Positions 56,700 through 64,000 of a stretch of 64,000 nucleotides of DNA are shown one piece after another (the first letter of the stretch is position 1; the number at the start of each line of letters is the position of its first letter). The DNA comes from Robiginitalea aestuariiviva (lineage in GTDB: Bacteria > Bacteroidota > Bacteroidia > Flavobacteriales > Flavobacteriaceae): the NCBI RefSeq assembly GCF_029537735.1, contig NZ_JARPUQ010000001.1, positions 177,468-241,467 on the forward strand. Reading direction: 5' to 3'. A program made the translations under genes and the position numbers. The notes under the pieces are model-generated. The model was not told the origin of the DNA and did not search any database. It saw nothing but the letters and a program-made list of their open reading frames with translations.

Positions 56700-57782
56700 T
56701 CAGGACTTGATGACTTTTTCCTGGTGGTTAATGGATTCCTGGTGGATGGCCTTGAACATCCGCAGGACAAACTCCTCGCTCAGTCCATGGCTTTCCCCCT
56801 CCAGGATCATACTGCCCAAAATGGCATTCCAGCGACCGGTCTGGAGCACGGCCACGTTACGCTGCTTTTTCAGGCCCCCGATGGCATCGGAGATTTGCAT
56901 CCGCTTGCCCAGGATCTCAATCAGCTGGTTGTCGATCACATCGATCTGGGCCCGCAGGTTGCTGAGCTTGCTGTTGTATTCGGCTTCCTCGTCCGATTCC
57001 TTCCGGATCCTGAGGTCTTGCATAATCTGTACCAGGCGCTCCGGGGTAACCTGCTGGGCGGCATCGCTCCAGGCGTTGTCCGGATCCGTATGGGTCTCGA
57101 TCATCAGCCCGTCAAAATTCAGATCCAGGGCAGTCTGGGACACATCGAAGATCAGGTCCCGACGGCCTGTAATGTGGGAGGGGTCATTGATCAGAGGCAG
57201 GTCCGGGAAGCGGGTCTGCAATTCAATGGCCAGCTGCCATTCCGGGATATTCCGGTATTTGGTTTTCTGGTAGGTGGAAAACCCGCGGTGGATCACTCCC
57301 AGGTTCTTGATGTTGGCGGAGTATAGCCGCTCCACGGCCCCCAGCCAGAGGGAAAGGTCCGGGTTTACGGGGTTTTTGATCAGGACAATTTTGTCCGTTC
57401 CCTCCAGGGCATCGGCAATCTCCTGCACAATAAACGGGCTCACGGTAGAACGCGCTCCAATCCACAACAGGTCAATGTCGTGCTCCAGGGCCAGGTCCAC
57501 ATGGGCCTTGTTGGCTACTTCGGTGGCCGTTTTCAGGCCGGTTTCGGCCTTCACCTTTTGTAACCACTTCAGGCCAATGGCCCCTACCCCTTCAAAGTTT
57601 CCGGGGCGGGTCCGGGGTTTCCAGATCCCGGCCCGGTAGTAATTCACGTCCGTATCCTTGAGCTGGTGTGCAATGGCCATCACCTGCTGTTCGGTCTCCG
57701 CGCTACAGGGCCCTGCAATCACCAGGGGGTGCGACAGGCCCATATCGTCCAGCCATTTGCGCATTTGCTTCGAATTTTCCAT
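56700..57782 (-). CDS. aroF: Bifunctional DAHP synthase/chorismate mutase
   Basis: 360 residues. The first 260 are a type I, KDPG-aldolase-like DAHP synthase that condenses PEP and erythrose 4-phosphate (VIAGPCSAETEQQVMAIA, about 21-38; GVGAIGLKWLQKV near 66; IGARSTVSPF near 108). The last 90 are an AroQ-type helical chorismate mutase (NLRAQIDVIDNQLIEILGKR, about 270-289). One protein thus catalyses the first step of the pathway and the branch to prephenate. It is the last gene of the attenuated operon, 3 bp after tyrA. The symbol is approximate; other names are used for this fusion. Confidence 0.94.
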   Translation of the reverse strand: MENSKQMRKWLDDMGLSHPLVIAGPCSAETEQQVMAIAHQLKDTDVNYYRAGIWKPRTRPGNFEGVGAIGLKWLQKVKAETGLKTATEVANKAHVDLALEHDIDLLWIGARSTVSPFIVQEIADALEGTDKIVLIKNPVNPDLSLWLGAVERLYSANIKNLGVIHRGFSTYQKTKYRNIPEWQLAIELQTRFPDLPLINDPSHITGRRDLIFDVSQTALDLNFDGLMIETHTDPDNAWSDAAQQVTPERLVQIMQDLRIRKESDEEAEYNSKLSNLRAQIDVIDNQLIEILGKRMQISDAIGGLKKQRNVAVLQTGRWNAILGSMILEGESHGLSEEFVLRMFKAIHQESINHQEKVIKS

Positions 57783-57785
57783 AAT

Positions 57786-58652
57786 CTAGTCTGCTTTATT
57801 GTTCAATGGTATTCCTTTTAAAATGTCCCGGATGCGGTTGGTATGGTCCATCTCCCGGTAGAGGGCCTCGTACTGATCGGCCGCTAATTTATCGCGGAAA
57901 TCCCGGAGGTTGGCAATGTATTCATCCAGGGTTTCCAATACGTTTTCCTTATTCTGCTCAAATATGGGGGTCCACATGGCCGGGGAACTCTTGGCCAGGC
58001 GAACCGTGCTTTCAAAACCACTCCCCGCCATATCGAAAATATCGCGTTCATTCTTTTCCTTCTCGATCACCGTTTTCCCCAACATAAAGGAGCTGATGTG
58101 TGAGAGGTGGGAAACATAGGCGATATGCCGGTCGTGAGCCTCGGGGTTCATGTAGCGGATGCGCATCCCGATCTTCCCGAAGAGTTCCAGGGCGCGTTCC
58201 TGGATTTGGAAGGCGGTTTGTTCCACTTCGCAAATGATGTTGACCTTGCCGTGGAACAACCCTGATACCGCTGCTTCCGGCCCGGTAAATTCCGTTCCCG
58301 CAATGGGGTGGCATGCCAGGAAGTTACGGCGTTTGGGGTGCCCGGCTACCGCCCGGCAGATGGGCACCTTGGTAGAGCCGGCATCGACCACAAGGGTGTG
58401 CTCGCCTACCGCATCCAGCAGGCCGGGCAGGGTTTCCGTAATGTGGTTCACCGGGATACTCACCACCACCAGGTCGGCCGCTTGCAGGTCTTCCGCGCCG
58501 GCCTCCCCGTCCACGAGCTTCAGGGCGATGGCCTTGGCAAGGTGGTCCGGGTTGCGGTCCTGCCCCAGTATCCGCGCCCCGGGAACCGCCATGCGGATGT
58601 CCCTGGCCAGGGATCCCCCAATAAGTCCTATGCCCAGAATGACTGCATTCAT
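57786..58652 (-). CDS. tyrA: Prephenate dehydrogenase
   Basis: 288 residues. NAD-binding motif LGIGLIGGSLARDI (about 6-19) and the substrate motif CHPIAGTEFTGPE (about 112-124). It oxidatively decarboxylates prephenate to 4-hydroxyphenylpyruvate for tyrosine. No C-terminal ACT domain is seen. It overlaps the aminotransferase stop by 4 bp and precedes the DAHP synthase/chorismate mutase gene. Confidence 0.94.
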   Translation of the reverse strand: MNAVILGIGLIGGSLARDIRMAVPGARILGQDRNPDHLAKAIALKLVDGEAGAEDLQAADLVVVSIPVNHITETLPGLLDAVGEHTLVVDAGSTKVPICRAVAGHPKRRNFLACHPIAGTEFTGPEAAVSGLFHGKVNIICEVEQTAFQIQERALELFGKIGMRIRYMNPEAHDRHIAYVSHLSHISSFMLGKTVIEKEKNERDIFDMAGSGFESTVRLAKSSPAMWTPIFEQNKENVLETLDEYIANLRDFRDKLAADQYEALYREMDHTNRIRDILKGIPLNNKAD

Positions 58653-59833
58653 GCTTTGTTGTTTTTTTGGGTTTTGACCCCGGCCCCGGCCAGGCGGTCA
58701 ATAGCCTCCCGGATCCGCTCCTCCGGCACGCAGAGGGAAAATCGCACATAGCCTTCCCCGGCGTCCCCGAAAATGGTGCCCGGGGCAATGAAGATATAGT
58801 GCCGGTGCAGCAGGTGGTCAATATAGGTTTCGGCATCCGGGCTTCCTTCCGGTAAGCGGGCCCAGACAAACATCCCTACCGCCTGTGGATCGTACCGGCA
58901 GCCCAGCAGGTCGGCCAGCTCATACATGGCCTTTCGCCGGCTCCCATACACCGCATCCAGGCGGTCAAACCACTGCGGCCCGCTTTTCATGGCGGCTACC
59001 GCCCCTTTCTGTATCCCGTAAAACATCCCGGAATCCATATTGCTTTTCACCTTGAGCACGGAGGCAATCAGGGGGGCGGCCCCCAGGACCATCCCCACCC
59101 GCCAGCCGGCCATGTTAAAGGTCTTGCTCAGGGAGTTGAGTTCCAGTACATGCCCGCTGTCTGCATCGGCCTCCAGGATGCTCAGGCGCTCCCGGCTCAG
59201 CACAAAACTGTAGGGGTTGTCATTCACCAGCAGGATGTTGTGGCGGCGGGCAAAAGCCACCAGAGCTTCCAGTTGCTCCCTCGAGGCACGGGCTCCGGTA
59301 GGCATGTGCGGATAGCTGATCCACATAAGTTTGACCCCATCGAGCCCGGCGGCTTCCAGCGCTTCCAGGTCCGGGAACCAACCGTGGGACTCACTTAGGG
59401 TATAGAATTCCGGATGGGCGCCCACCAGGCGCGTAACCGAGGCATAGGTAGGATACCCGGGGTTTGGGATCAGGACCCTGTCCCCGGGGTTCAGGAAGGC
59501 CATGCTGATGTGCATGATCCCCTCTTTGGAGCCCATCAGGGGGAGAATTTCCGTATCCGGGTTCAGGTCCACCCCGAATTTACTGGCGTAAAAGGCCGCA
59601 ATGGTTTGCCGCAGTTCGGGCAGGCCCTGGTAGCTTTGGTACTGGTGCGCGCCGGCATGGTCCACCGCCTCCCGCAAGGTGTGCAGTACCTCCGGGGCCG
59701 GGGCCAGGTCCGGGCTGCCGATACCCATATTGATCACCGGGTGGCCCTGGGCCATCATGCCCCGGACTTCCCGGAGTTTGGTGGAGAAATAGTACTCCTT
59801 TACGTGCTGGAGTCTTTCGGCTTCCTGTATCAT
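58649..59833 (-). CDS. PLP-dependent aminotransferase (class I/II), probably aromatic
   Basis: 394 residues, fold type I. The PLP lysine is in NSLSKTFNMAGWRVG (near residue 235) and the substrate/PLP segments PNPGYPTYASVTRLVG and VNDNPYSF are present. The family includes aspartate, aromatic and LL-diaminopimelate aminotransferases. Placement between pheA and tyrA, with 4-bp overlaps on both sides, makes transamination of phenylpyruvate and 4-hydroxyphenylpyruvate the best guess. Confidence 0.9.
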   Translation of the reverse strand: MIQEAERLQHVKEYYFSTKLREVRGMMAQGHPVINMGIGSPDLAPAPEVLHTLREAVDHAGAHQYQSYQGLPELRQTIAAFYASKFGVDLNPDTEILPLMGSKEGIMHISMAFLNPGDRVLIPNPGYPTYASVTRLVGAHPEFYTLSESHGWFPDLEALEAAGLDGVKLMWISYPHMPTGARASREQLEALVAFARRHNILLVNDNPYSFVLSRERLSILEADADSGHVLELNSLSKTFNMAGWRVGMVLGAAPLIASVLKVKSNMDSGMFYGIQKGAVAAMKSGPQWFDRLDAVYGSRRKAMYELADLLGCRYDPQAVGMFVWARLPEGSPDAETYIDHLLHRHYIFIAPGTIFGDAGEGYVRFSLCVPEERIREAIDRLAGAGVKTQKNNKA

Positions 59834-60660
59834 TGCCTTGCATTTTTGTATTCGCCCAGTACCCGGAAATCTTCGGTCATGATCTGCAGAAGTGCTTTTG
59901 CCTTTTCAAAGGAATCATACGCCTCAAAGGTCACGTCCACAAAGAAGGAATACTTCCAGGGGGTTTCAATGACGGGCAGGGACTGGATTTTGGTCAGGTT
60001 CAGGTTGCAGTCGCTCATCACGTTAAGCACCGTGGCCAGGCTGCCGCGTTTGTGGTCCGTGAGGAAACGCACGGAAGCCTTGTTAATTTCGGCCCTGGGC
60101 AATTCCTTGTTTATGGTCTTCAGGACAATAAAGCGGGTGGCATTGTTTTTTATGGTCTGGATTTCACGGGCCAGGATATCCAGGTCGTAGAGTTCTGCGG
60201 CAATTTCCGGGGCTATGGCTGCAATCCCCTCCAGGCCATTCTGACGGATATTCCGGGCGGTTTCGGCCGTGTCCACATCCTCTACCAGTTTTACCTGCGG
60301 CAGGGTTTTCAGGTACTCCCGGCACTGCAACAGGGCCATAGGATGGCTGCGAACCTCCCGCAGGTCGGAAAGCTGCTGCCCAGGCAGGGCCATCAGGTTG
60401 TGGTGTACGTTCAGGTAGTGTTCCCCAATGATGTGCAGGCCGTTCTCGCAGACCAGGGCATAGTTGGGGATAATGGAGCCCGCAATGGAGTTCTCGATGG
60501 CCATCACGGCCTTGTCTGCCCGGCCCTCCATAAGGGTATCGACCATACCGTGAAAGGACAGGCATTCCACCAGCTCGATCTCGCGGCTGAAATACTCCGA
60601 GGCCACCTTGTGGTGGTTGGACCCCAGTACTCCCTGAATGGCTACGCGCAATGGCTTCAT
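59830..60660 (-). CDS. pheA: Prephenate dehydratase with divergent ACT domain
   Basis: 276 residues from the ATG at 60660, beginning MKPLRVAIQGVLGSNHHK. The catalytic TRF motif is in NNATRFIVLK (about 171-180). The C-terminal ACT domain (about 185-265) has GSLATVLNV and LTKIQSLPVIE where regulated dehydratases have GALV and ESRP, so feedback binding of Phe may be weak. It converts prephenate to phenylpyruvate. First structural gene of the operon. A longer frame to 60747 runs through the attenuator terminator and is rejected. Confidence 0.94.
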   Translation of the reverse strand: MKPLRVAIQGVLGSNHHKVASEYFSREIELVECLSFHGMVDTLMEGRADKAVMAIENSIAGSIIPNYALVCENGLHIIGEHYLNVHHNLMALPGQQLSDLREVRSHPMALLQCREYLKTLPQVKLVEDVDTAETARNIRQNGLEGIAAIAPEIAAELYDLDILAREIQTIKNNATRFIVLKTINKELPRAEINKASVRFLTDHKRGSLATVLNVMSDCNLNLTKIQSLPVIETPWKYSFFVDVTFEAYDSFEKAKALLQIMTEDFRVLGEYKNARQ

Positions 60661-60678
60661 CTTCTGTTTTGTTTCAGC

Positions 60679-60693
60679 GGCCTGCCGCAGGCC
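60679..60693 (-). promoter_or_regulatory. 15-bp palindrome between attenuator and pheA start
   Basis: GGCCTGC (60679-60685), one base, GCAGGCC (60687-60693): a perfect palindrome that begins just after the terminator U run and ends 18 bases before the pheA ATG. It would fold into a small GC-rich hairpin in read-through transcripts and might affect ribosome access. Confidence 0.5.
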
Positions 60694-60694
60694 T

Positions 60695-60722
60695 AAAAAA
60701 AAAGTCCCGTTTGAAACGGGAC
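60695..60722 (-). terminator. Attenuator terminator of the pheA operon
   Basis: On the minus strand GTCCCGT (60722-60716), a 5-base loop, ACGGGAC (60710-60704), followed by nine T residues (60703-60695). It is 34 bases upstream of the pheA ATG, so it must be bypassed for operon expression. It shares its 5' arm with the antiterminator pairing. Confidence 0.9.
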
Positions 60723-60762
60723 CCTGTGATATCTGGTTGCATACCAACTACAACGGTCCCGT
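60716..60762 (-). promoter_or_regulatory. Antiterminator pairing of the pheA attenuator
   Basis: On the minus strand ACGGGACC (60762-60755, inside the last leader codons) is the exact complement of GGTCCCGT (60723-60716). This 8-bp pairing uses the 5' arm of the terminator and so excludes it. A ribosome at the leader stop codon (60750-60748) would cover the first strand and favour termination. Confidence 0.8.
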
Positions 60763-60819
60763 ACCCCTTTTAAAAAAGAAGTAGAAATACAAACCGCTAT
60801 AAAAGAAAGTCGGACGCAT
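60748..60819 (-). CDS. Phe/Tyr-rich leader peptide of the pheA operon
   Basis: A 23-codon open frame, ATG at 60819-60817 and TAG at 60750-60748. The residue run TFFYSGLYFYFFF (residues 4-16) holds six Phe and three Tyr codons. It is followed by KRGTGPL and stop. Nine of 23 codons are for the two end products of the downstream operon, and the last codons overlap the antiterminator strand. This is the layout of ribosome-mediated attenuation as in enterobacterial pheA and trp leaders. The peptide itself probably has no function. Confidence 0.85.
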   Translation of the reverse strand: MRPTFFYSGLYFYFFFKRGTGPL

Positions 60820-61019
60820 AGGTGTCTTATCTGGCGCCTAAGGTAAATATTAAATTGAATTTCCGATACTTCTGCCAACATTTTTCAAAAAAAAAGAGGA
60901 ATGGGAACTTTCGTTGCGAAATCAAAAGCCATTTTTACCATTCTTTATGAAATCCGAACTCTTCAAATCCCGGGGCAGGCTTTCCCGGGCTTTGTGTATT
61001 TTTACCAAAAACCCGGCAT
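60820..61019. other. Divergent promoter region for the pheA leader and gldA
   Basis: AT-rich 200 bp between the leader start and gldA. Toward gldA a TATTTTTA at 60997-61004 is a possible -7 element (one mismatch). For the leader transcript I see no element matching TAnnTTTG well; a weak AATATTTA on the minus strand at 60844-60851 is the only candidate. Nothing else is supported. Confidence 0.4.
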
Positions 61020-61928
61020 ATGTCCATCCGCGTTTCGCAAATCAGTAAATCCTTCGGGGCCCAAAAGGCTCTGGACCAGGTGAGTTTTTCCATCGAAAAA
61101 GGGGAAGTTGTCGGTTTTCTGGGTCCCAACGGCGCCGGGAAATCCACCCTGATGAAAATCCTTACCACCTACTACCAGGCAGACTCGGGTAGTGCCGCCG
61201 TAAACGGCTATGACGTGGTAGCCAATCCCAGGGACGTACAGCGGAGCCTGGGCTACCTCCCCGAACACAATCCTCTGTACCTGGACCTTTATGTGCGGGA
61301 ATACCTGAATTTTTGCCGCCGCGTATTCGGGGTGGGCAAGGATCGCGTGGAAGCCGTGATCGGACAAACCGGCCTGCACCCCGAAGCCCGAAAAAAGATC
61401 GGGCAGCTTTCCAAAGGATACCGGCAGCGGGTGGGGCTGGCGGCCGCCCTGCTGCACGACCCCGAAGTACTGATCCTGGACGAACCCACCACCGGCCTGG
61501 ACCCCAACCAACTCCTGGAAATCCGCAAACTGATCCGGGATATTGCCAAGGACAAGACCATTTTGCTCTCTACCCATATTATGAAGGAAGTGGAGGCGGT
61601 TTGCGACCGGGTATTGATCATCAACAAAGGACAACTGGTGGCGGACACCACCCTGGAGGCCCTGCGGGAAGGGGAAACCCAGGTGATTGAAGTGGAATTT
61701 GACTACCGGGTGGAAGAAGCCCTGCTGCAGCGACTGGACCACGTGGCCCAGGTGCGCAACACCGGGGGATTTGTGTATGAAATCCACTTTTCCACCTCCG
61801 TGGACATGCGGCCGGCCGTCTTTGATTTTGCCCACGATAATGAGCTGAAAACCCTGCAGCTCTCCCGTAAAACCCGGAACCTGGAGAGCCTCTTTACGGA
61901 ACTCACCACGGCCGGGGAAACCCTGTAG
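61020..61928 (+). CDS. gldA: Gliding motility-associated ABC transporter ATP-binding subunit GldA
   Basis: 302 residues. Walker A GPNGAGKST (about 38-46), signature LSKGYRQRVGLA (about 134-145), Walker B VLILDEPTTGLD (about 155-166) and the switch His in LLSTHIMKEV (about 185-194). The C-terminal 80 residues form the extension typical of GldA. In Flavobacterium GldA works with the membrane subunits GldF and GldG, which are not in this window. It converges with the SIMPL gene at 61932. Confidence 0.93.
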   Translation: MSIRVSQISKSFGAQKALDQVSFSIEKGEVVGFLGPNGAGKSTLMKILTTYYQADSGSAAVNGYDVVANPRDVQRSLGYLPEHNPLYLDLYVREYLNFCRRVFGVGKDRVEAVIGQTGLHPEARKKIGQLSKGYRQRVGLAAALLHDPEVLILDEPTTGLDPNQLLEIRKLIRDIAKDKTILLSTHIMKEVEAVCDRVLIINKGQLVADTTLEALREGETQVIEVEFDYRVEEALLQRLDHVAQVRNTGGFVYEIHFSTSVDMRPAVFDFAHDNELKTLQLSRKTRNLESLFTELTTAGETL

Positions 61929-61931
61929 AAT

Positions 61932-62642
61932 TTAGTCGACCAACTGGTAATCGATGGTGGAAACCACCCGGATCTTTTTGATGTGGGGGGAATTGGCGTC
62001 CAGGTTTTCTATGGTAAAAATCCCCTGGCGGGCAGCGCGTATGGGCCCCACCTGGCTCCCGGAATCCCGGGCAAATTTGGCCGCAACCTCCCGGGCATTG
62101 CGCGTGGCTTCTTCAATCATTTCGGGTTTCAGGGAATTGAGCCCGGTGAAGATGTACTCCACGGGCTGCCATTCGTTTTTGGAAGCAAAGAGGATCCCTT
62201 CCGACAGCAGTTGCAGGCTGGCATTGAGGGCTTGCTGCAATTTGGGGATATCCGTAGTGCGCACGGTAATTTCAGATTTGGCCAGGTAGCGGTTCACCGC
62301 ATATTGCGCATTGTTGTTATAGATATTGGCCTGGGCATCGCTGATGTTCACCACCCCCATCCGCACCTCTGTGGTGTCAAAACCCTGGTCCATAAAAAAG
62401 GTATAAACCTGTTCGTTCTGCCGGCTGATCCGCCCCTGCAGGGTTTGCAGGTCATTTCCGGTCAGGACAATATTGATGGGCCATACGGCCAGGTCTGCCG
62501 GCACTTCCCGTTCGGACAACCCCTTCACGCTTACCAGGCGGTCCCATTGCTTGCCTTTCAGGTAGGTGTTGCCGATAAAATAACCGCCCAGGGTCAGGCC
62601 CAGGGCTAAAAACAAGGCGGGAAGTACGAATGTGGATTTCAT
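61932..62642 (-). CDS. SIMPL domain-containing (DUF541) membrane-anchored protein
   Basis: 236 residues. An N-terminal membrane helix (about 5-25, VLPALFLALGLTLGGYFIG) is followed by a SIMPL domain: LVSVKGLSEREVPADLAVWP near 36-55, and QLLSEGILFASKNEWQPVEY near 145-164. SIMPL proteins are periplasmic or membrane-linked and of unclear function. A second SIMPL gene lies 0.9 kb away beyond the SRAP gene. Confidence 0.85.
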   Translation of the reverse strand: MKSTFVLPALFLALGLTLGGYFIGNTYLKGKQWDRLVSVKGLSEREVPADLAVWPINIVLTGNDLQTLQGRISRQNEQVYTFFMDQGFDTTEVRMGVVNISDAQANIYNNNAQYAVNRYLAKSEITVRTTDIPKLQQALNASLQLLSEGILFASKNEWQPVEYIFTGLNSLKPEMIEEATRNAREVAAKFARDSGSQVGPIRAARQGIFTIENLDANSPHIKKIRVVSTIDYQLVD

Positions 62643-62714
62643 TGGAAAAATATCAGGGCCGGGGCACCGGCAGGTTCACTTTTATCTACGCGCCCAAAGG
62701 GCCTCCCGGATCTC

Positions 62715-63479
62715 TCACCCCTCCAATTCAGGGTAAACCACCTTGTCGCTTACTTCGGGGACATTTCCCGTGTAGGCTTTCCCGCGAAGGCGACCCACCG
62801 TATGGGCTTTCAGACCCTCCTCCGGGAAGGACCGGATCAGGCCCTCAATCGCCTGCTGGTCTGCAGGTTCCCGTATGGGTTCCAGCCACTGGTCTACTCT
62901 GTTTTCCGGCAGGATCAGGGGCATGCGGGGGCCCGCCAGTTTGGGGTTGTTGTGGATGCGCGCCATCATAGGGTTACCCTCCGTGGTTACTATACTGAAG
63001 GTGGTCAGGATTTCCCCGGTTTCGGGATTGGCCCAGTCACTGTACAGGCAGGCCAGGGCCATGGGCTCCCCGTCTGCGGGGTAAATGAAATACGGATACG
63101 CCTTCCCCCCGTGGTGGTGGTGTTCGTAGAACCCATCCACATAAAGCAGGCAGCGATGGTTCCGGGCCGCGGTGCGGAAGGAGGGCTTTTCGAACACGGT
63201 CTCCCCCCGGGCGTTCAGGGTCTGGTTCCAGAGTTTCTGCTGCTGGGCGTGGTCCCGTACCCAATGGGGCACCAGGCCCCAGGTGGCCACGCAGGGGAAA
63301 TCTGGTTGCTGGTCCGTATAGATCAGCATCCTGGGGTGGCTGAAGCCCGAAGCGTGAAACAGGGGCAGGTCCGTTTGCGGCAGCAAAGATTCCCGGATCT
63401 CGGCCGCAGCCTCGGCATCGCCCCGATGCAGGGCCCGTTTCAGCTGGGCCGTCTTACTGGCTTTGATGTCGTAGCACAT
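62715..63479 (-). CDS. yedK: SOS response-associated peptidase (SRAP/HMCES family)
   Basis: 254 residues from the ATG at 63479, so that after removal of Met the catalytic Cys2 becomes the N-terminal residue (MCYDIKASK). SRAP proteins form a thiazolidine cross-link with abasic sites in single-stranded DNA and shield them. Supporting segments: WGLVPHWV (about 76), NARGETVFEKPSFR (about 95), the Glu in DGFYEHH (about 117) and the His in MMARIHNNPKLAGPRMPL (about 175). An earlier in-frame start at 63551 would bury Cys2 and is rejected. Confidence 0.92.
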   Translation of the reverse strand: MCYDIKASKTAQLKRALHRGDAEAAAEIRESLLPQTDLPLFHASGFSHPRMLIYTDQQPDFPCVATWGLVPHWVRDHAQQQKLWNQTLNARGETVFEKPSFRTAARNHRCLLYVDGFYEHHHHGGKAYPYFIYPADGEPMALACLYSDWANPETGEILTTFSIVTTEGNPMMARIHNNPKLAGPRMPLILPENRVDQWLEPIREPADQQAIEGLIRSFPEEGLKAHTVGRLRGKAYTGNVPEVSDKVVYPELEG

Positions 63480-63493
63480 GGGTGGGTGTAAAT

Positions 63494-63514
63494 GGGCGGG
63501 GACGATCCCCGCCC
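63494..63514. promoter_or_regulatory. 9-bp GC-rich inverted repeat upstream of the SRAP gene
   Basis: GGGCGGGGA (63494-63502), CGA, TCCCCGCCC (63506-63514): perfect 9-bp arms with a 3-base centre. It lies 14 bases upstream of the SRAP ATG. No T run follows, so it is not a terminator. It may be a repressor site or a translation-inhibiting hairpin. Confidence 0.5.
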
Positions 63515-63576
63515 CGGATAACAATTTACCGGTTTTGCCTGCAACCCGCAAGCAGCCGGCCTTCAGGCTAAGGCTC

Positions 63577-64000
63577 CTACTCCAACAGGAACTTCACCTG
63601 TACGTTTACCTCCACTTTGATCTTGCGAAACTCGGCATCAATGGCTTCGTAGGAAGATTTTTCCCTGCCCATATCATCGGAGGCGGCGCGCATGGCCATG
63701 ACCGGGCCATAGACCGGACCATAGTTCCCGCTATCGGAAATATAAACCGCCTTCCCGACCTTTTGCTCTACGGCCCCGGCCATGATCTCGGCCAGGTTGC
63801 GGGCTTTCAGTACGGCCAGGGCCTTGAGTTCGGTCTGCAACTGCTCCATTTTGGAGTATTCCGACCGCTGCATCCGCACATTGGAAACCCCCAGTTGTTC
63901 CAGTTCGTATAGCACGCAACCCGCGGTGGCGGCGTCGTATACCAGGAGTTCAAAGCCCTTTTGTTTGAGCACTTTTTGCCCCTTCAGGAAATAGGACTGA
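63577..64000 (-). CDS. SIMPL domain-containing (DUF541) protein (partial, N-terminus beyond window)
   Basis: The frame is open to the right edge of the window, so only the last 140 codons are present. The visible part reads LYELEQLGVSNVRMQRSEYS, then AVLKARNLAEIMAGAVEQ, and ends IKVEVNVQVKFLLE, the C-terminal half of a SIMPL domain. A GTG at 63972 is an internal codon, not a start. It is the second SIMPL protein in this region; the two are clearly different in sequence. Confidence 0.85.
   Translation of the reverse strand, partial: QSYFLKGQKVLKQKGFELLVYDAATAGCVLYELEQLGVSNVRMQRSEYSKMEQLQTELKALAVLKARNLAEIMAGAVEQKVGKAVYISDSGNYGPVYGPVMAMRAASDDMGREKSSYEAIDAEFRKIKVEVNVQVKFLLE

Follow-up and report, generated by a model that had tools for sequence, protein, structure and literature searches.

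A probable leader-peptide attenuator with interleaved phenylalanine and tyrosine codons before the pheA operon of Robiginitalea aestuariiviva, and its recurrence in Bacteroidia

The minus strand of the 64,000-nt stretch of Robiginitalea aestuariiviva DNA analysed here (the window; G000:C1:177468-241467 of a 3.22-Mb genome) carries an operon of four genes for aromatic amino-acid synthesis, preceded by a short leader ORF, two mutually exclusive RNA helices and a U tract (Table 1). From their sequence, these elements very probably form a classical ribosome-mediated transcription attenuator of the pheA-aminotransferase-tyrA-DAHP synthase/chorismate mutase operon. The first-pass annotation of this DNA had proposed a ribosome-mediated Phe/Tyr attenuator at this place. 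That reading is supported by the anatomy of the unit, its recurrence in relatives, the co-variation of its exclusive helices and the spacing of its parts, all of which are demonstrated below, and the positions first assigned to the leader, antiterminator, terminator and U9 tract proved correct to the base.

Table 1. Features of the candidate attenuator and of the operon behind it, in window coordinates.
Feature	Coordinates	Strand	Remarks
-7-like promoter element TACCTTAG	60838..60845	minus	matched as TAnnTT.G
Leader ORF MRPTFFYSGLYFYFFFKRGTGPL, stop next	60819-60748	minus	23 codons; 6 Phe and 3 Tyr; similar frames in relatives
Control codons Tyr-Phe-Tyr-Phe-Phe-Phe	60772..60789	minus	earlier Phe-Phe-Tyr at 60807-60799
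Segment 1, 5' arm of possible protector hairpin	60783..60798	minus	partner 60767-60750; fold, cognate pairing; weak covariation
Segment 2 ACGGGACC, antiterminator 5' arm	60755..60762	minus	within final leader codons
Segment 3 GGTCCCGT	60716..60723	minus	common to antiterminator (with segment 2) and terminator
Terminator stem-loop GTCCCGTTTCAAACGGGAC	60704..60722	minus	11-pair version 60725-60701
U9 tract	60695..60703	minus	34 bases upstream of pheA ATG at 60660
pheA, prephenate dehydratase	59830..60660	minus	PF00800 2.6e-56; best NCBIfam matches prephenate dehydratase, under curated cut-offs
Class I/II aminotransferase	58649..59833	minus	profile matches
tyrA, prephenate dehydrogenase	57786..58652	minus	NF006307 above cut-off
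DAHP synthase fused to chorismate mutase	56700..57782	minus	PF00793 and PF01817

Phe and Tyr, which the operon serves to make, account for nine of the 23 codons of this short leader ORF. The leader RNA folds at -41.9 kcal/mol (z -4.18), and none of 200 shuffled sequences was equally stable; the antiterminator region alone gives -20.8 kcal/mol (z -2.78; 1 of 200 shuffles equally stable) and the terminator hairpin -13.6 kcal/mol. This hairpin is the sole terminator-like site on the minus strand within 60600-61020, a region in which both strands together hold two such sites versus a shuffle mean of 0.6, and it is predicted to act as an intrinsic terminator between the leader and the first gene. 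No Shine-Dalgarno-like site was seen before the leader ATG in the window sequence. The pheA frame is open upstream of its ATG, across the terminator, to a TTG at 60747 on the minus strand, directly after the leader stop codon; a gene call based on the longest ORF would therefore place the start of pheA wrongly.

The order pheA, aminotransferase, tyrA, DAHP synthase/chorismate mutase is kept in 79 of 80 named loci. Close named relatives of the window are Flavobacteriaceae, with the PheA of Robiginitalea aurantiaca at 77% identity in a search that may lack entries from this genome itself or from one very close to it. The first-pass annotation had described an operon that makes exactly Phe and Tyr; this was overstated, since a DAHP synthase-chorismate mutase and a class I/II aminotransferase are also present. 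Upstream of the leader, gldA diverges at 61020 on the plus strand, an arrangement found in the available DNA of 43 of the 80 named loci. A sigma-70 promoter scan at the leader region gave no match, and a Bacteroidota-type element, whose -7 consensus we take to be TAnnTTTG, was scanned in its place. A perfect match to TAnnTT.G lies within 52 nt upstream of the leader in 98 of the 121 distinct units assembled below, versus 11% of shuffles (a second script, which covered one extra place, gave 100 of 121), and in 60 of those 98 it starts 24-27 nt before the leader ATG. A promoter of pheA behind the leader had been named at the outset as a point against attenuation. No -7-like element lies between the leader and pheA in the window; among the 121 units, one was found just behind the leader (52 nt) in two and between the terminator and pheA in five.

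How such a unit would work can be set out from these parts. Transcription would start just upstream of the leader ORF, as the -7-like element suggests. When Phe-tRNA or Tyr-tRNA is short, a ribosome would stall when one of the Phe or Tyr codons of the run enters its A site, and its leading edge would halt just short of segment 2, leaving this segment free for segment 3 once the latter has been made; the pairing of segments 2 and 3 would block the terminator, and RNA polymerase would proceed into pheA. When both charged tRNAs are plentiful, the ribosome would move to the stop codon or near it and cover segment 2, segment 3 would pair with segment 4, and transcription would end in the U tract. 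Translation of the leader, stalling, termination and read-through are steps that we infer from the arrangement of the unit.

Regions of up to 420 bases before pheA were scanned in relatives with a detector that called a frame starting with ATG, 14-36 codons long and containing five or more Phe plus Tyr codons (and no less than 20%), if it ended no more than 60 nt before a terminator (zero mismatches, loop of up to 9) near the gene. The detector was positive in 37 of 43 loci of genus, family and order relatives, in all 79 named loci with upstream sequence and in 30 of 55 class-wide loci, versus 0 of 860, 2 of 1580 and 0 of 1100 dinucleotide shuffles, respectively (2 of 3540 overall; rates of 0 to 0.13%). 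None of 541 other long ORFs of the named loci, 27 of them with a terminator in range, was positive. Four loci whose upstream sequence was absent or shorter than 180 bases (L005, L009, L046, L054) were excluded before counting, and L024 was dropped as the same place as L047. The class-wide loci derive from 58 genomes matched by a pheA profile among 197 genomes of the class (139 were without a match), from which the own genome, G040 (identical to L044 of the first set) and G080 (a fragment) were left out; a PF00800 search of 119 class genomes gave 33 matches, none of them missed by the pheA profile.

Leader, complement and terminator were recognized by eye in eleven further class-wide loci, namely eight (L140, L154, L164, L165, L168, L172, L174, L176) and another three with only four Phe/Tyr codons each (L142, L144, L175); these 11 are judgements and not program counts, and the detector misses real units. 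A GTG start is needed for L140 and for the second unit of L168. The remaining 14 of the 55 class-wide loci were without a complete unit both by detector and by eye (L133, L134, L135, L138, L139, L145-L148, L153, L162, L178, L180, L182). In L133 and L134, pheA seems to lie close behind another gene, and in loci of this type the switch may have been lost or placed at the start of another operon. The six detector-negative loci among the 43 relatives comprise five without a leader (L020, L026, L036, L044, L045) and one, L041, in which a leader is present and no terminator was called. Three loci (L043, L168, L176) carry two tandem Phe/Tyr leaders before pheA, and every leader has a terminator of its own, as called by the program in L043 and partly by eye in L168 and L176; these loci look as if the attenuator had been doubled.

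A run of Phe/Tyr codons is by itself not unusual in this genome, as a run of five has 22 matches genome-wide (two of which overlap in this leader) versus 31 for the reversed pattern. Among the 22, this leader alone is a short ATG frame followed by a terminator. Short frames with an ATG also contain the run in L199 and L204, where the 400 bases examined held no terminator.

The 146 units obtained were collapsed to 121 with distinct peptides, in which named loci and other genomes probably overlap. Across these 121 units, pairing of segment 2 with segment 3 averages -13.84 kcal/mol for cognate partners versus -9.85 kcal/mol for non-cognate ones, and none of 5000 permutations was as low, nor any of 5000 in the 26 distinct class-wide units alone, although the permutation and shuffle tests ignore kinship among units. 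Segment 2 appears in variants such as ACGGGACC, CGAGAC, AGGATTGT, AGCGGGA and GCCGGGAC, and its partners match. The two helices were also followed column by column in an alignment of 44 closer units, some rows of which are out of register in segment 3, so that the covariation figures of both helices are lowered. In this alignment, the antiterminator has 87.2% standard cells, with five of eight pairs changed on both sides (14 cells versus 4.3 when shuffled) and a covariation of 0.215 (0.162 shuffled, at most 0.107 when slid), and the terminator has 93.8% standard cells, with six of eight pairs changed on both sides (31 cells versus 10.4) and a covariation of 0.330 (0.190 shuffled, at most 0.119 when slid). 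This pattern suggests that an antiterminator and a terminator that exclude each other have both been kept by compensatory change. It had been anticipated that the leader frame and both alternative pairings would be conserved in related genomes, and their recurrence and co-variation were indeed observed, in distant relatives as well as in close ones.

The position of the codon run relative to the antiterminator varies little. The core of segment 2 lies a median of 13 nt (quartiles 12 and 14) beyond the first base of the final Phe/Tyr codon. When the entire stretch up to the terminator was considered, this distance fell between 11 and 15 nt in 99 of 121 units versus 262 of 2420 shuffled ones, with a standard deviation of 1.79 versus 14.31 nt. 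The stop codon, in contrast, has no fixed place relative to segment 2, the distance ranging from -8 to +31 nt. The leading edge of a ribosome lies about 12 nt beyond the start of its A-site codon, and with a spacing of about 13 nt a ribosome stalled at the last control codon would therefore just clear segment 2. The consequences were modelled with masked folds of the RNA that exists before segment 4, in which the readout was the probability that segment 3 is paired upstream. With a stall on the last Phe/Tyr codon this probability averages 0.968 and is at least 0.5 in 120 of 121 units, and with a stall two codons earlier it averages 0.982; with the stop codon in the A site it averages 0.158 and is below 0.2 in 86 of 121, the window giving 0.43. 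In these folds, therefore, the stall site is predicted to leave the antiterminator free and a ribosome near the stop codon to cover it, the stop state being only partly blocked in the window.

Segments 1 and 2 may form a protector hairpin, the element that in an attenuator of this kind would cause termination when the leader is not translated. Their pairing beats shuffled partners (p 0.05) in 79 of 121 units; in the 44-unit alignment the helix has 89.0% standard cells and double changes in three cells versus 1.7 when shuffled, a value reached by 118 of 500 shuffles. When the RNA was folded at equilibrium without a ribosome and before segment 4, the antiterminator was still preferred (mean 0.801; window 0.96; below 0.5 in 22 of 121), which implies that the protector hairpin is weak or kinetic; at equilibrium, it is not predicted to win over the antiterminator. 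Trp is present in 63 of the 121 leaders (e.g., L003), and in 28 of the 44 close units it stands at codon -9, where it adjoins Asn-Gly codons that form part of segment 1, the possible protector arm.

Which amino acids are sensed can be judged from the codons themselves. It might be supposed that Phe alone is sensed and that Tyr codons merely replace Phe codons, without effect, in a peptide rich in aromatic residues, given that the first gene is pheA and that, among the 44 close units, Phe predominates at each of the three codons next to segment 2 (39, 44 and 40 of 44). We consider this unlikely. Although the last control codon is Phe in 97 of 121 units, it is Tyr in the other 24, and Tyr prevails at codon -3 (89 Tyr, 28 Phe). 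Furthermore, in the 26 class-wide units Phe and Tyr are about equally frequent at codons -4 to -1, while their ratio is 16 to 10 at the last codon and 12 to 6 at codon -5, and a stall two codons earlier would also free segment 2 in the masked folds described above.

The codon pattern also bears on whether the frame is read as codons at all. An RNA-only switch (T-box-like or a riboswitch), with the Phe/Tyr frame as a by-product of pyrimidine-rich sequence, could draw on the U-rich nature of the run and on the frequency with which such runs arise by chance in this genome. However, across the six codons of the run the 44 close units have a mean entropy of 0.09 bits at position 1 versus 0.52 and 0.56 bits at positions 2 and 3, and all 121 units have 0.26, 1.01 and 0.95 bits. 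These figures are biased towards T at position 1, since an anchor codon has to be Phe or Tyr and the picker selects whichever frame is richest in Phe plus Tyr. The Phe/Tyr exchanges and synonymous changes seen in the close units are free of that bias. The share of Phe plus Tyr is 0.405 in frame versus 0.129 and 0.187 in the other frames, a difference that the picker likewise favours. Against Rfam release 15, which we take to include amino-acid leaders, T-box elements and riboswitches, the region 58000-64000 of the window gave five matches at E up to 10, all far under their gathering scores and none to a suitable family; one of them (suhB, E 6) overlies the terminator. No extra conserved block besides the frame and the helices was seen in the alignment of the 44 units (A2). 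On the codon-position pattern, the lack of an Rfam family and the lack of such a block, riboswitch, T-box and pure-composition readings were rejected, and an RNA-only switch is in our view highly improbable. Action of the leader peptide itself, in cis or in trans (by arrest or as a free peptide) instead of codon-wise charged-tRNA supply, is just as improbable, as the hydrophobic aromatic peptide keeps a fairly constant motif in close relatives but its C-terminal residues vary by lineage along with segment 2, its stop codon moves freely relative to that segment, and just the Phe/Tyr content and the spacing persist.

The pheA operon is probably not the only one of its genome to be attenuated by a leader peptide. 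Before hisG (L205, on G000:C2) lie a candidate His leader MKNMVSHHHSVVHAQAR, a terminator and a complement GCTCAGGCG..GGT, and before trpE (L208, G000:C1:45997) a candidate Trp leader MKPNFHTIWWWLQLHETP followed by a terminator, the complement here being less clear; no leader of such kind was found upstream of ilvD in the same genome. Together with the pheA unit, these sequences make it probable that three or more amino-acid operons of the genome are under the control of peptide attenuators.

Beyond the attenuation of this operon by charged-tRNA supply, a broader reading has, in our estimate, about an even chance of being correct. The unit would be a class-wide and probably ancestral dual sensor, in which a single leader responds to the supply of both Phe and Tyr, the spacing from stall to antiterminator is fixed, the peptide end and the helices drift, and some lineages have doubled the unit in tandem; its hosts would hardly use Shine-Dalgarno sites, and with a weak protector a failure to initiate translation of the leader would also turn the operon on. 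If this is true, the unit would naturally report that transcription and translation are tightly coupled in Bacteroidota. Such a switch works only with a ribosome close behind RNA polymerase, so that its recurrence is in itself sequence evidence for coupling. In many Bacteroidia, Phe/Tyr synthesis would be tied to a switch of the leader-peptide type, for which a single reporter construct would serve as a test.

Vitreschak in 2004 and Lopatovskaya in 2010 reportedly gave broad treatments of attenuation, and the latter may already include Bacteroidota. The first-pass annotation knew of no characterised example in flavobacteria. This stands for bench work, as a literature search of open-licence papers found no attenuator of this type that had been studied at the bench in Bacteroidota; it does not extend to predictions, which exist for flavobacteria (PMC9723704) and for Bacteroides (PMC1173090; PMC2864571). 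Strong indications that leader peptides attenuate amino-acid operons were described for Flavobacterium psychrophilum, together with structured 5' elements before pheA and hisG that are shared with other genera and have no Rfam hits (PMC9723704). The pheA element of F. psychrophilum and other Flavobacteriaceae is probably identical to that described here, although the passages of that paper on pheA give no Phe/Tyr frame, alternative helices or spacing. A putative attenuator before pheA>hisHb>aroA-aroQ>tyrA of B. thetaiotaomicron (PMC1173090, Table 7) belongs to the same phylum and the same gene set and is likewise predicted; it comes from a prediction website, and, unlike the present unit, it is given with no leader peptide, the word "leader" being absent from the main text. 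The Bacteroid-trp RNA (RF01692), marked as a cis-regulatory element of Bacteroidota (PMC2864571, Table 1), belongs by its name to trp genes, and its model had no match in the window region or elsewhere in the genome. Short ORFs reminiscent of leader peptides have been noted in 5' UTRs of B. thetaiotaomicron (PMC7366714). A paper of 2010 stated that, as far as its authors knew, demonstrated leader-peptide systems were confined to Proteobacteria and Actinobacteria until their own case in Firmicutes (PMC2965389). Candidate Phe or Phe/Tyr leader frames have been listed for shikimate genes, namely uORFC-13-1 before aroF (PMC8632094), which adjoins a terminator as the window leader does, and shikimate uORFs (PMC6429828, Fig. 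6b). These precede other genes than those of the window's operon; "Bacteroid" is absent from PMC8632094, and none of the five genomes of PMC6429828 belongs to Bacteroidota. Novelty is thus limited, in that pheA attenuation in Bacteroidota was partly suspected in print already; what appears to be new, as far as the literature was searched, is the identification of the Phe/Tyr frame, of two helices that co-vary and of a rule for their spacing from the codon run, together with the reach of the unit across the class and its doubling in tandem.

The leader-peptide attenuators of Proteobacteria, of the E. coli pheL type, include those of pheA/pheST, trp and his. Bacteroidota make little use of Shine-Dalgarno sites. 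The present unit resembles the Proteobacteria type in having a short ORF with control codons, an antiterminator at or just past the end of the frame, and an exclusive terminator with a U tract ahead of the first biosynthetic gene. It differs in that Phe and Tyr codons are interleaved, the operon also contains tyrA and a DAHP synthase gene, the leader ATG is preceded by no Shine-Dalgarno-like site, the protector appears weak and Rfam gives no match. An Rfam scan consequently misses the element, and a gene finder with a length limit may also miss the leader. The absence of Shine-Dalgarno sites has been noted in print (PMC9723704). The unit in the window is a better documented case of a classical kind of attenuator.
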